From positions 1 to 64,000 of the forward strand of contig JAKADY010000001.1 in NCBI GenBank assembly GCA_021826065.1: a stretch of DNA of 64,000 nucleotides, written 5' to 3'. Shown here one piece after another: positions 5,866 through 53,624 of this stretch (the first letter of the stretch is position 1; each line of letters opens with the position of its first letter). The translations under genes were made by a program, and so were the position numbers. The notes under the pieces were generated by a model. The model made no database searches and was not told the origin of the DNA. It saw only the letters and a program-made list of their open reading frames with translations. Origin of the DNA: Pseudomonadota bacterium. GTDB taxonomy: Bacteria; Pseudomonadota; Gammaproteobacteria; Burkholderiales; Thiobacillaceae.

Positions 5866-6261
5866 ATGTCAGCCTACGGTTTCTCCATCCAGATCGACCT
5901 GCCCTTCGACGCCGCCGTCGCCAAGACCATCGAGGCCCTCAAGCAGGAGGGCTTCGGCGTGCTCACCGACATCGACGTCAAGGCCACCCTCAAGGCCAAG
6001 CTCGACGTCGAGCGCCGCCCCTATCGCATCCTGGGCGCCTGCAACCCGCCGCTCGCCAACCAGGCCCTGAATGCCGAGGACGACATCGGCCTGCTGCTGC
6101 CCTGCAACGTGGTGGTCAAGGAGGAGGCCGACGGCAAGGTCACCGTCGCCTTCCTCGACCCGGACGTGATGGTCAAGCTGGTGGACAAGCCGGAGGTCCA
6201 GGAGATCGCGCGCGAGGCGCGGGCGCGCCTGATGCGCGTGCGCGACAGCCTCGCCGCCTGA
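5866..6261 (+). CDS. DUF302 family protein
   Basis: 131 residues covering a single DUF302 domain, with the typical N-terminal pattern of a beta strand then [20 protein letters not shown] and a core containing [13 protein letters not shown]. Function is unknown; members are often found in sulfur and metal stress settings. ATG at 5866 is preceded by GAGG at suitable distance. It converges with the thioredoxin-like gene. Confidence 0.88.
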
Positions 6262-50118: not shown

Positions 50119-50838
50119 TCAGTGCAAGACGCGGTGCGCCAGTTGCGACACCGCAGCGGCGCTCTGCCGGCGCGGCGTGCGGGTGAAAAAATCCTCTCTG
50201 GCCATGACATTGGCCCGGGCCGGCAGCACGGCCAGGAACTTCCCCGCCAGATCGCCATCATCCTTGTCCGCCCGCGTCTGCCACATCTCGAGGAACTGGC
50301 TGCGGCTGTAGGTGCGGTTGCCCAGGCTGGGGTCGGCCAGCCACACCGTGTCGCCATCGATGCCGCGCAGCACGGAGAAGTGATCGTCCTTGCGATGTTT
50401 CACATAGACGATGACCGGCATCTTGAGCCGGGCCAGTTGCTCATAACTTGCGGCGAAGCCCTGCGCCTTGAAGCCGTACTGCGCCAGCGCGCGCGCCATG
50501 TCGGCGAAGCTTGCCCGCCCATCGCCCTTGTCCATGGCCTGCAAAAGCTGCGCCTCGGTCAGCCGCTGGCCGTAGTATTCGTTGAGCAAAGTCGCCAGGG
50601 CGGCCGCGCCGCAGGAATAGTCCAGATCCTGCTTGACCACACGGTCGTCACGCAGCCGTTTCCAGCTCTTGACCGGCACAAGGCCGGACGCCGAGTGCGT
50701 GGCGAGGATCACGCTCTCGGGGCCGGGTGATGTTGCGGTGTTGGCTTCACCCGGCGTGTCGGGGGATTGCGCTTGCGCGAAGCCGCAGGCCGAAACCAGC
50801 GCGACGAACAGGTTAAAGCTTGCGCGCACGGGGCGCAT
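50119..50838 (-). CDS. Periplasmic C39-family peptidase
   Basis: 239 residues. A Sec signal (MRPVRASFNLFVALVSACG, cleavage after AQA) is followed by a C39 papain-like domain with catalytic Cys in DYSCGAAALATLL (about residue 86), His in HFSVLRG and Asp in DPSLGN. C39 enzymes cut after double-glycine leaders. Usually they are fused to ABC exporters; here there is no transporter and the enzyme is predicted to be secreted, as in FapD of the Fap amyloid system. The likely substrate is the precursor at 52055-52513. Confidence 0.88.
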   Translation of the reverse strand: MRPVRASFNLFVALVSACGFAQAQSPDTPGEANTATSPGPESVILATHSASGLVPVKSWKRLRDDRVVKQDLDYSCGAAALATLLNEYYGQRLTEAQLLQAMDKGDGRASFADMARALAQYGFKAQGFAASYEQLARLKMPVIVYVKHRKDDHFSVLRGIDGDTVWLADPSLGNRTYSRSQFLEMWQTRADKDDGDLAGKFLAVLPARANVMAREDFFTRTPRRQSAAAVSQLAHRVLH

Positions 50839-51416
50839 CAACCCATGCCTAAAGACCCCGCGCCGGACGGCGGCGGGACAACCCCGAGCATGGCCATGAC
50901 GATGCCCAGCACCGCGAACAGGACGCCGGTCGCCAGCATGGCCGGAATCAGGCCGACGACGATGCCGCCGATGCTGTAACCCAGCCCCGCCTTGGGGATC
51001 GCACCCGAGAGGGCATTGGCCCCCACCCAGACCGAGTACAACCACAACGGCAGCGTCAGCAGATAAGGCACGCCGAGCGCCGTCAGGCCCGCTCCGAGCG
51101 TGTCGGCCACCAGCCAGGAAGCGGCCACCAGATTGAACAGATCGCCCTGCCCGTCCCAGCGCCCGCCGCGCTTCATCCACCATTTGAGCACGGCCACGAT
51201 GACGAGAAACGCCGTCCAGACCGACAGCACCATGAAGGGGATGGCCAGCCACGGCGGCATGCCGGGCGTCTCCGGCGTGCCGCCAGTCAGGCCCGGATCG
51301 AGGCCGGTGAGCATGCCGATCAGGGTGATGGCCAGCACCGACTGCCAGCGGGGGAAGGCGAAACGATCAAAGGGGAGTTCGCGCAGGAGGAAGAGGGAGA
51401 GGGCGGAGTTGATCAT
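50838..51416 (-). CDS. YIP1-like membrane protein
   Basis: 192 residues with about five membrane segments and a short Pro/Gly C-terminus. The stretch AIPKAGLGYSIGGIVVGLIPAML is typical of YIP1-domain proteins. It overlaps both neighbours, so it belongs to the operon. Role in export or immunity is inference. Confidence 0.7.
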   Translation of the reverse strand: MINSALSLFLLRELPFDRFAFPRWQSVLAITLIGMLTGLDPGLTGGTPETPGMPPWLAIPFMVLSVWTAFLVIVAVLKWWMKRGGRWDGQGDLFNLVAASWLVADTLGAGLTALGVPYLLTLPLWLYSVWVGANALSGAIPKAGLGYSIGGIVVGLIPAMLATGVLFAVLGIVMAMLGVVPPPSGAGSLGMG

Positions 51417-51703
51417 CTTGTTGTGTCGGCAGCAGAGTTTTTCGACAACCGTTGAACCACTACGGCTACAACAAAGGCAGCAAAACTCATCAAAAATGCG
51501 TCAACGAAGGTGGTTAGCGTATCTTGCGCCCGATTATTCATCCATGAAAAAAGGTAATAAATTGGCGCGTAAGATACAAATATTTTCAGGAGGGATACAA
51601 GCGCCATGGGGAGCGTGAGAGGATATCTGGTGAATAATTGGGCAAGAACAAGCAAGGCCATAATTTGGATGCCAAACATACCGCCGTATAGCATTTGAAT
51701 CAT
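51413..51703 (-). CDS. Small membrane protein, possible immunity protein
   Basis: 96 residues from ATG 51701-51703, three predicted membrane helices (GIQIMALLVLAQLF, LLKIFVSYAPIYYLFSW, AFLMSFAAFVVAVVV) and a charged tail. Sequence is noticeably more AT-rich than flanking genes. Overlaps the YIP1-like gene by 4 bases. Family not recognised. Confidence 0.65.
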   Translation of the reverse strand: MIQMLYGGMFGIQIMALLVLAQLFTRYPLTLPMALVSLLKIFVSYAPIYYLFSWMNNRAQDTLTTFVDAFLMSFAAFVVAVVVQRLSKNSAADTTR

Positions 51704-51708
51704 GGTCG

Positions 51709-52026
51709 TCAGACAAAGTGGGGAAAGAGTTTGTAGATGGCGGCGTGCGTGATGATCAACAGAAGCATATGCGCCTCCCAGAGGAAGGCGTTCCAAATTT
51801 CCGCGTATCTGCTAAAACAGCGCATCTTTTGAGCCATCAGCGCAAAAACCTCCAGGATGCTGGCCACCAGTCCGTATAGACCAAGCGCCAACCCTTCGAG
51901 ATGCATGAAACCATATGGGCCATGAAATTTCAGACCATACAGCAGAATGGCCACCCCCAACGCCAAAGCGGCATGCGCCAGATGAATACCTGTTTTTGTG
52001 CTCACCGAGACGCGAGAGGTGGCCAT
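51709..52026 (-). CDS. Small membrane protein, possible immunity protein
   Basis: 105 residues from ATG 52024-52026; a TTG start at 52086 would overlap the precursor gene. About four hydrophobic helices. AT-rich codon usage like its neighbour. 28 bases after the precursor gene and 5 before the next. Family not recognised. Confidence 0.62.
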   Translation of the reverse strand: MATSRVSVSTKTGIHLAHAALALGVAILLYGLKFHGPYGFMHLEGLALGLYGLVASILEVFALMAQKMRCFSRYAEIWNAFLWEAHMLLLIITHAAIYKLFPHFV

Positions 52027-52054
52027 GGCTGATAGAGTCAATACAAAACCGCCA

Positions 52055-52513
52055 TTACCACCATCCTCGACCTGCGCCGTAGCCAATCAGCGCCCCTCGA
52101 CCAGCTGAGAAACTCAGTCGGCCAAGCGCACCGCCAATGGATTGGGTAGGACGAAAAGCGCCCCATGCCGCGCCGACACCGATAGATCGAGCAAGGCCCC
52201 ATGCGACGCTGCTGGGCGAAGCATTGCGGTTATAAACAGCACTCGTCATGTAACCGTATGCGCCCGACAAACCGCCCACGAATCCTCCCGCAACATTCAG
52301 CCAATACGCCCCCTCCGTCTCCTTCATCTCCTGATCGGACAGCGCCGCCAGTTGCATCGGCTGGTGGGCGTTGTCGAACAGCGCGGCCATGTCCGCCTCG
52401 GTGAAGGCGGCGACAGGTTGGGTTGCGGCTTCGACCTGCGCTTCCGTCGCATAAGCCTGTGCAGACAGCATCCCGACCGAGGCCAGGGCAAGAACAGCGT
52501 GTTTCAACTGCAT
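52055..52513 (-). CDS. Secreted precursor with Sec signal and double-glycine-type leader
   Basis: 152 residues in three parts. (1) A Sec signal MQLKHAVLALASVGMLSAQ ending AYA. (2) A propeptide ending LSDQEMKETEGA (about residues 58-69), which matches the leader of class II bacteriocins with GA as the cut site. (3) A mature part of about 83 residues rich in Gly, Ala and aromatic residues (AGGFVGGLSGAYGY; ends GYGAGRGWW). RBS AAAGGAG precedes ATG 52511-52513. The two-stage leader suggests export by Sec and trimming by the periplasmic C39 enzyme. Confidence 0.75.
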   Translation of the reverse strand: MQLKHAVLALASVGMLSAQAYATEAQVEAATQPVAAFTEADMAALFDNAHQPMQLAALSDQEMKETEGAYWLNVAGGFVGGLSGAYGYMTSAVYNRNASPSSVAWGLARSIGVGAAWGAFRPTQSIGGALGRLSFSAGRGALIGYGAGRGWW

Positions 52514-52666
52514 GATATAGACTCCTTTCGTGTCACGAAGATAACAACAAGCCTCGCAAGACTCCCGAGGCACTCTTTGACGGTGTTGGCCCACCGCCAA
52601 ACCTTGCGCGGATCGGGCAGTGTGCCCGTTCCGCATAATTCTTCCCAAGCCGGCTCGCACGCCCTT

Positions 52667-53557
52667 TCACCGCAAGGTGTAGAGCCAGTTCAGTCGGAAT
52701 TCCGACCCGCCCGACCCCGAGGCGTTGGCCTTGAACGTGGCGTTGAGCGTGTTGCCGCGGTCGAAACCGTAGCCCGCGCCGAGGACGAGGTCGGTGGCGG
52801 TGCGGGCGATGCCCTGGGGGGAGCCGTCGATCCGGTCGGTTTGCCGGCGTGTCCATTGCAGTCCGGTGGTCAGCGTCACCCGGTCGTTCACCGCGAAGCC
52901 TACCGAGGGGTTGACGAGCAGCAGGTTGCCGGGCTTCAAGTCCTGTTCGCCTTCGCGGCGGGTTTGATTGAAGCGGTAGCCGGCGGTCAGCGAGAACACG
53001 ATGGGGTCGATGGCCTTGTAGGTGGTGATCCCCAACATGGCGGACTTGAAGCTGGCTGTGTCGTGGCGGTGTTTCTCGGCCAGGGCCAGTTCGGCAAAGC
53101 CCAGTACGGCGGGGGCGTCGTCGTCTTTTTTGAACTGGACGTTCACCCCCGCCCAGGCATCGGCGAGGCGGGTCTCTCTGCTGGAAGACGTGCCCGATAG
53201 GCCGCTCGTGCGCTGGCTGGAAGTCAGGCCGCTGGCGCGCGTGTAGATCTCCGTTTTGGCGGTCAGCCCGTAGCGCAGCCCGACGGTGCCGACGAGGGTG
53301 TCCGAGTTGCCGATACTCGTGCCGATGGCGGTCGGGATCGTGACGAACGAGGCGGGACCGGTCTGCACGACGATCGGCGCGCCGGTGGACACCCCCTGGC
53401 GATCCACGTTGGCATAGGCGAAGGAGAGATCGAGCTTGACCTTGCCTTGGTCGGTGATCAGGTCTTCGACGGTAAGGGGCAGGTCGGCGAACGCCGGGAC
53501 GCCAAGACAAGACAAGGCGGCGGCCAGGCCGGGAACGACAGGCGGACGGAAAGGCAT
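52667..53557 (-). CDS. Outer-membrane beta-barrel protein
   Basis: 296 residues. Sec signal (MPFRPPVVPGLAAALSCLG, cleavage after AFA), then alternating amphipathic strands (VKLDLSFAYANV, DTLVGTVGLRYGL, VFSLTAGYRFN) and a C-terminal strand ending FRLNWLYTLR. Probably about 12 strands. It may be the export pore or receptor for the peptide system; FapF offers a precedent of a barrel beside a C39 enzyme. Its promoter has a G13 run. Confidence 0.75.
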   Translation of the reverse strand: MPFRPPVVPGLAAALSCLGVPAFADLPLTVEDLITDQGKVKLDLSFAYANVDRQGVSTGAPIVVQTGPASFVTIPTAIGTSIGNSDTLVGTVGLRYGLTAKTEIYTRASGLTSSQRTSGLSGTSSSRETRLADAWAGVNVQFKKDDDAPAVLGFAELALAEKHRHDTASFKSAMLGITTYKAIDPIVFSLTAGYRFNQTRREGEQDLKPGNLLLVNPSVGFAVNDRVTLTTGLQWTRRQTDRIDGSPQGIARTATDLVLGAGYGFDRGNTLNATFKANASGSGGSEFRLNWLYTLR

Positions 53558-53591
53558 GGAACTCCCTGTGAGCGGCTTCTGATTTTTCGTG

Positions 53592-53624
53592 ATCCTATGG
53601 CCCCCCCCCCCCCACTATTGTCAA
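53592..53624 (-). promoter_or_regulatory. Candidate phase-variable promoter with G13 tract
   Basis: On the minus strand TTGACA (53624-53619), 21-base spacer containing thirteen consecutive G (53613-53601), then TAGGAT (53597-53592), 35 bases before the beta-barrel start. Loss of about four G would give the ideal 17-base spacer. Poly-G/C tracts between -35 and -10 drive phase variation in neisserial porA and opc. Confidence 0.65.

Follow-up and report, generated by a model that had tools for sequence, protein, structure and literature searches.

How a peptide precursor that carries both a Sec signal and a double-glycine leader is matured and released is the question raised by positions 50119-53624 of the window, the 64-kb stretch of Thiobacillaceae DNA that was analysed here. 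In class II microcins and bacteriocins, an ABC exporter uses its own C39 domain to remove leaders of this kind at the inner face, whereas the present locus combines a Sec signal with a C39 peptidase predicted to be periplasmic and has no ABC exporter. The initial annotation interpreted this arrangement as a two-step maturation route (Sec, then C39) feeding an outer-membrane barrel, to be refuted by a lack of homologous clusters elsewhere, by precursor homologues without the leader or by a cytoplasmic C39 protein. None of these three came true and the two-step reading is supported, the cleavage itself remaining inferred.

Organisation of the operon

All six genes previously described as lying on the same strand were recovered as open reading frames on the minus strand (50119-53557), in the transcription order barrel, precursor, P0004, P0003, P0002 and C39 peptidase. 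The C39 gene (50119-50838, minus strand; 239 aa counted from its own ATG) encodes a secreted peptidase with the N-terminal signal MRPVRASFNLFVALVSACGFAQAQ, a Pfam Peptidase_C39 match (E=1.4e-25) and intact catalytic residues Q70, C76, H153 and D169, which are shared by all 64 relatives. Apart from this stand-alone gene, the C39 search gave no match in the 2.74-Mb genome and revealed no C39-ABC exporter. No ABC domains are attached to the window enzyme, in agreement with the proposed C39 enzyme that has its own signal peptide and no ABC transporter. Signal peptides were called by eye and with a simple rule rather than with SignalP. Under a strict rule they were present in 66 of 101 relative C39 ORFs, many of the misses being fragments, and the enzyme family does not appear to be cytoplasmic.

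In the C39 tree, window-type peptidases form one unbroken group with weak support (48), placed beside Fap-like C39s and distant from those of ABC exporters. Two NCBIfam identities were rejected, as the protein scores 85.2 bits against a cut-off of 330 for the FapD equivalog (NF058616) and 84 bits against a cut-off of 475 for Acinetobacter FilB (NF050078). The putative pilus system Fil of Acinetobacter, to which FilB belongs, shares the stand-alone C39 peptidase, but its pilus genes are absent from the operon.

The barrel gene (52667-53557, minus strand) encodes 296 aa including a signal peptide. FapF was the sole match below E=1 when its profile was compared with the PDB (E=1.2e-4), the AF2 model (pLDDT 82.8) contains 12 long strands and the best 18 Foldseek matches are all FapF chains (top E=1.5e-13, TM 0.68); the predicted structure bears out the outer-membrane barrel and assigns it to the FapF fold. 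The N-terminal coiled-coil of FapF is missing from the model, in which the first strand starts from residue 40 of 296, signal counted.

P0004 (51709-52026, minus strand), the first ORF past the precursor, and P0003 (51413-51703, minus strand) are small and AT-rich, as had been noted, with GC contents of 0.525 and 0.436, respectively, against 0.675 for the window, and about three hydrophobic, probably transmembrane, segments each. The GC content of P0003 is the lowest among the genes of the region. No homologue of either was detected in the other loci, and both are considered candidate immunity proteins, P0003 being the second, on the basis of position, low GC and analogy. P0002 (50838-51416, minus strand) is a conserved multi-helix membrane protein with 12 homologues (49-76% identity) adjoining C39 genes and an AF2 model of pLDDT 85. 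The YIP1-like identity first suggested for it was rejected as unsupported, Yip1 having matched one of 13 homologues at E=0.037 and the fold search having given no match. In one other locus (L034:5090-5980), an immunity candidate ORF is joined in frame to a P0002 homologue.

Upstream of the barrel gene, a promoter-like site (53592-53624, minus strand) comprises TTGACA (53619-53624), TAGGAT (53592-53597) and a 21-nt spacer containing a G13 tract (53601-53613), the only homopolymer of at least nine nucleotides in the window. A consensus promoter scan with spacers of 16-18 found nothing at 53592-53624, and the site with its 21-nt G-tract spacer was therefore examined on its own. Similar sites precede the barrel in three further loci, L038 (TTGACA-N21-TATAAT, with G10 in the spacer), L034 (G7, spacer of 17) and L047 (G8), although these spacers were read by eye and the lengths of G-tracts in draft assemblies may be wrong. 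The poly-G tract in the spacer suggests a slippage-controlled, phase-variable promoter, the switching being inferred from the sequence. The C39 reading frame of L084 itself contains a G13 tract (6143-6155), which may switch that gene on and off.

Leader, core and the exchange of modules

The precursor (52055-52513, minus strand; 152 aa) was expected to carry both a Sec signal and a later leader, and both are conserved across a family of 55 unique sequences. Signal and leader together occupy aa 1-69 (52307-52513, minus strand), as delimited by the alignment of the leader family. The Sec-type signal ends in ..SAQAYA, its final Ala being conserved in all 20 aligned rows, and is followed by an acidic pro-leader whose last residues, LSDQEMKETEGA, form a double-glycine-type (GA) site. 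The register matches the double-glycine consensus at L-12 (53/55), S-11 (51/55), E-8 (53/55), M-7 (52/55), T-4 (52/55), G-2 (52/55) and A-1 (41/55), with M in place of L at -7, T in place of I at -4 and A as the usual residue at -1, so this type of leader is retained by the precursor homologues.

The predicted mature core (YWLNVAGG..GRGWW; 52058-52306, minus strand; core family 0) is a cationic, Gly-rich peptide of 83 aa with a charge of +6 and eight GxxxG motifs. Across the family, cores have a median length of 75 aa and are cationic in 41 of 44 cases, leaders are acidic in 44 of 44, and GxxxG occurs 143 times in the cores compared with 104 +/- 8 after shuffling. The LSxxE(L/M)xx(T/I)xG(G/A) leader, the cationic Gly-rich core and the small membrane proteins with a putative immunity role are shared with class II microcins and bacteriocins. 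Pfam gave no match for any core tested and nothing meaningful for the partner ORFs, and no PHROG was assigned to the precursor or barrel. Among the cores of L004, L064, L102, L096, L034, L045 and L081, some resemble small enzymatic toxin domains and not pore formers, for example ..FHAGSGxRxTHxHxxxRNGxHVWYGxPR, which has no Pfam match.

Leaders and cores have diverged to different extents, with median pairwise identities of 0.42 and 0.20, respectively. Identical or near-identical leaders precede unrelated cores (L052, L063, L096 and, on an Acinetobacter plasmid, L102) and related cores are found behind diverged leaders (L004/L064/L102 and L034/L045); judged by these exchanges, leader and core are separate modules. 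Related cores also share the family of the downstream ORF (17 of 69 pairs versus 4 of 914), a result reached by none of 2000 permutations. In nine of nine GC-rich hosts GC3 drops at the predicted cut site (leader, 0.80; core, 0.52; p=0.002), and the GC3 of the leader is no different from that of the C39 gene in such hosts. The window follows the same pattern, with GC3 of 0.78 in the leader and 0.52 in the core, and of 0.46 and 0.63 in the two small genes compared with 0.83-0.88 in the other genes measured. This combination of module exchange, composition break and core-partner co-variation is the pattern expected if toxin-immunity cassettes were exchanged within a constant export framework.

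Distribution and relationship to known systems

Homologous clusters are widespread. A C39 scan of genome contigs yielded 52 loci from beta- and gammaproteobacteria and Helicobacter, in addition to two metagenome bins labelled Nitrospirota and Bacteroidota, labels that may be wrong. Barrel, leader and C39 occur together in 34 of these loci, and in 28 of the 37 with upstream sequence of 3.4 kb or longer. Within the order the distribution is sporadic, with a window-group C39 in about nine of 300 genomes; in a close-relative sample, precursor relatives were absent from the other 100 genomes. A search of 300 genomes of the order with the leader alignment returned ten copies at E<1e-9 in seven genomes, all of them among the roughly nine C39 carriers (hypergeometric chance of the overlap, 9e-13), with the leaders within about 4 kb of C39. 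The seed loci of the leader model had been identified by way of C39, but the genome search itself did not use C39. Matches at E=2e-4 to 1e-3, which covered only the N-terminal part (mainly the signal peptide), were set aside.

In the plasmid collection, C39 and barrel were found in the identical five records, two of them from N. gonorrhoeae and of chromosome size, the other three being Acinetobacter plasmids. A 6.3-kb plasmid among these carries a relaxase and is mobilizable, its barrel gene spanning the start of the record. A plasmid search with the L045 core gave no match, and the search for phage relatives returned only two distant NHLM-ABC matches.

Two other arrangements of C39 genes were observed. 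A second, mostly signal-bearing group in the same order (L013-L032) mostly adjoins repeat proteins rich in Gly and Asn, in many cases accompanied by a small protein with an RGG/RGRE-type site, and looks Fap-like with its own substrates. In the gammaproteobacterial loci L067, L073, L074, L080 and L084, a signal-bearing protein immediately precedes C39; it is a DUF2059 protein in L067 and appears alike by eye in the others.

FapD/FapF had been offered as the only known precedent, but the Neisseria nap island, composed of NapP, NapF, NapA/B/C and NapI (PMC11798529; 2025), proved closer. A Neisseria C39 of the window group (58-60% identity, same tree group) lies directly upstream of hisS, including in a record named N. 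gonorrhoeae. This is the reported location of napP (PMC11798529), indicating that the window system belongs to the nap type, with FapD/FapF as a more remote precedent. The window barrel is 43% identical to a gonococcal barrel, and a shorter related barrel ORF occurs in the island itself. Leaders of the window family are present in the Neisseria locus L096 (E=3.5e-15), unlike in L101, an N. gonorrhoeae record whose barrel ORF beside C39 is short and in whose island no intact window-family leader was found.

In addition to the related C39 by hisS, the two systems share a FapF-type barrel with double-glycine peptides between, a centre of low GC content, homopolymer tracts that suggest phase variation and a candidate immunity gene. 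The window system differs in the clear Sec signal on its precursors, the general cassette pattern and the presence of P0002. The passage of Naps through the inner membrane was left open, with NapH suggested (PMC11798529); the signal peptide conserved in the window family speaks for Sec. The Pseudomonas Fap system likewise has a Sec-exported C39 peptidase, FapD, which is needed for secretion and whose substrate was called unclear, and a 12-strand FapF-type barrel (PMC5557850), but its products are amyloid repeats and its FapF carries the N-terminal coiled-coil.

Nature of the product

The locus is probably a modular bacteriocin-immunity operon exported via Sec, a periplasmic C39 peptidase and a FapF-type barrel, a reading for which there is no experiment. 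The precursor would cross the inner membrane through Sec with removal of its signal peptide, after which the C39 peptidase would recognise the LSxxEMxxTxGA leader in the periplasm and cut after GA, a step that is inferred and not shown. The cationic, Gly-rich core would then leave through the barrel, as inferred from the fold of the latter. Killing is likewise inferred, and protection of the producer by the small downstream membrane proteins is proposed from the co-variation seen in other loci. The core and its putative immunity gene would be exchanged as a cassette, the leader and export genes otherwise staying conserved, and slippage of the G-tract in the promoter may turn expression on or off.

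The product had been left undecided between a bacteriocin with immunity proteins and a surface peptide or amyloid, and the evidence favours the bacteriocin over the amyloid. In a Fap-like functional amyloid or surface fibre, the product would pass the barrel and assemble on the cell surface, as could be expected from the FapF-like sequence and fold of the barrel, from FapD being similarly a Sec-exported C39 required for secretion (PMC5557850) and from the position of Fap-like C39s next to the window group in the tree. This is nonetheless unlikely: the cores are short, cationic, Gly-rich and mutually unlike (median identity 0.20), they lack the Asn/Gln repeats reported for FapC and they travel with partner ORFs. 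No Asn/Gln-rich amyloid repeat subunit was found in the core sequence or in any gene of the operon, there is no FapB/C/E-like gene and the barrel has no N-terminal coiled-coil.

Self-directed lysis peptides, as proposed for the Neisseria Naps, would instead act in stationary phase by lysing the population that produces them. The nap island, with its related C39 by hisS, is ascribed a role in autolysis and not in competition; its peptides promoted autolysis, and synthetic mature gonococcal Naps did not inhibit competitors (PMC11798529), the latter result counting against the bacteriocin reading. The matched families of core and downstream ORF across distant hosts, however, resemble toxin-immunity pairs, carriage on a small plasmid fits a bacteriocin, and the short barrel ORF and missing family leader of the gonococcal record suggest that the gonococcus is maybe an atypical host, making self-lysis an unlikely explanation of the family. 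Double-glycine leaders also serve Gram-positive signal peptides, and a role in communication or competence could be imagined on this ground, but it is very improbable given that the operon has no sensor or regulator gene and that the cores are long (median 75 aa), hypervariable and accompanied by partner ORFs.

With relatives carrying swapped putative toxin and immunity genes in many bacteria and on plasmids, the bacteriocin operon proposed here suggests that Gram-negative antibacterial peptides may use a secretion route that is little known so far. Whether Sec, periplasmic C39 and FapF-type barrel constitute a general Gram-negative route for modular, horizontally shuffled bacteriocins, with interchangeable toxin-immunity cassettes, some enzymatic-looking cores, a phase-variable promoter and the nap island as a member partly decayed in the gonococcus, is a broader proposal that could fall either way. 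The family offers a clear substrate architecture for a periplasmic C39, namely a Sec signal followed by a canonical double-glycine-type leader, in dozens of testable peptidase-substrate-barrel sets, and it provides the nap island with a possible role that would replace autolysis or add to it. The family further suggests that a large number of Gram-negative bacteriocins are still uncatalogued and would escape ABC-based genome mining.
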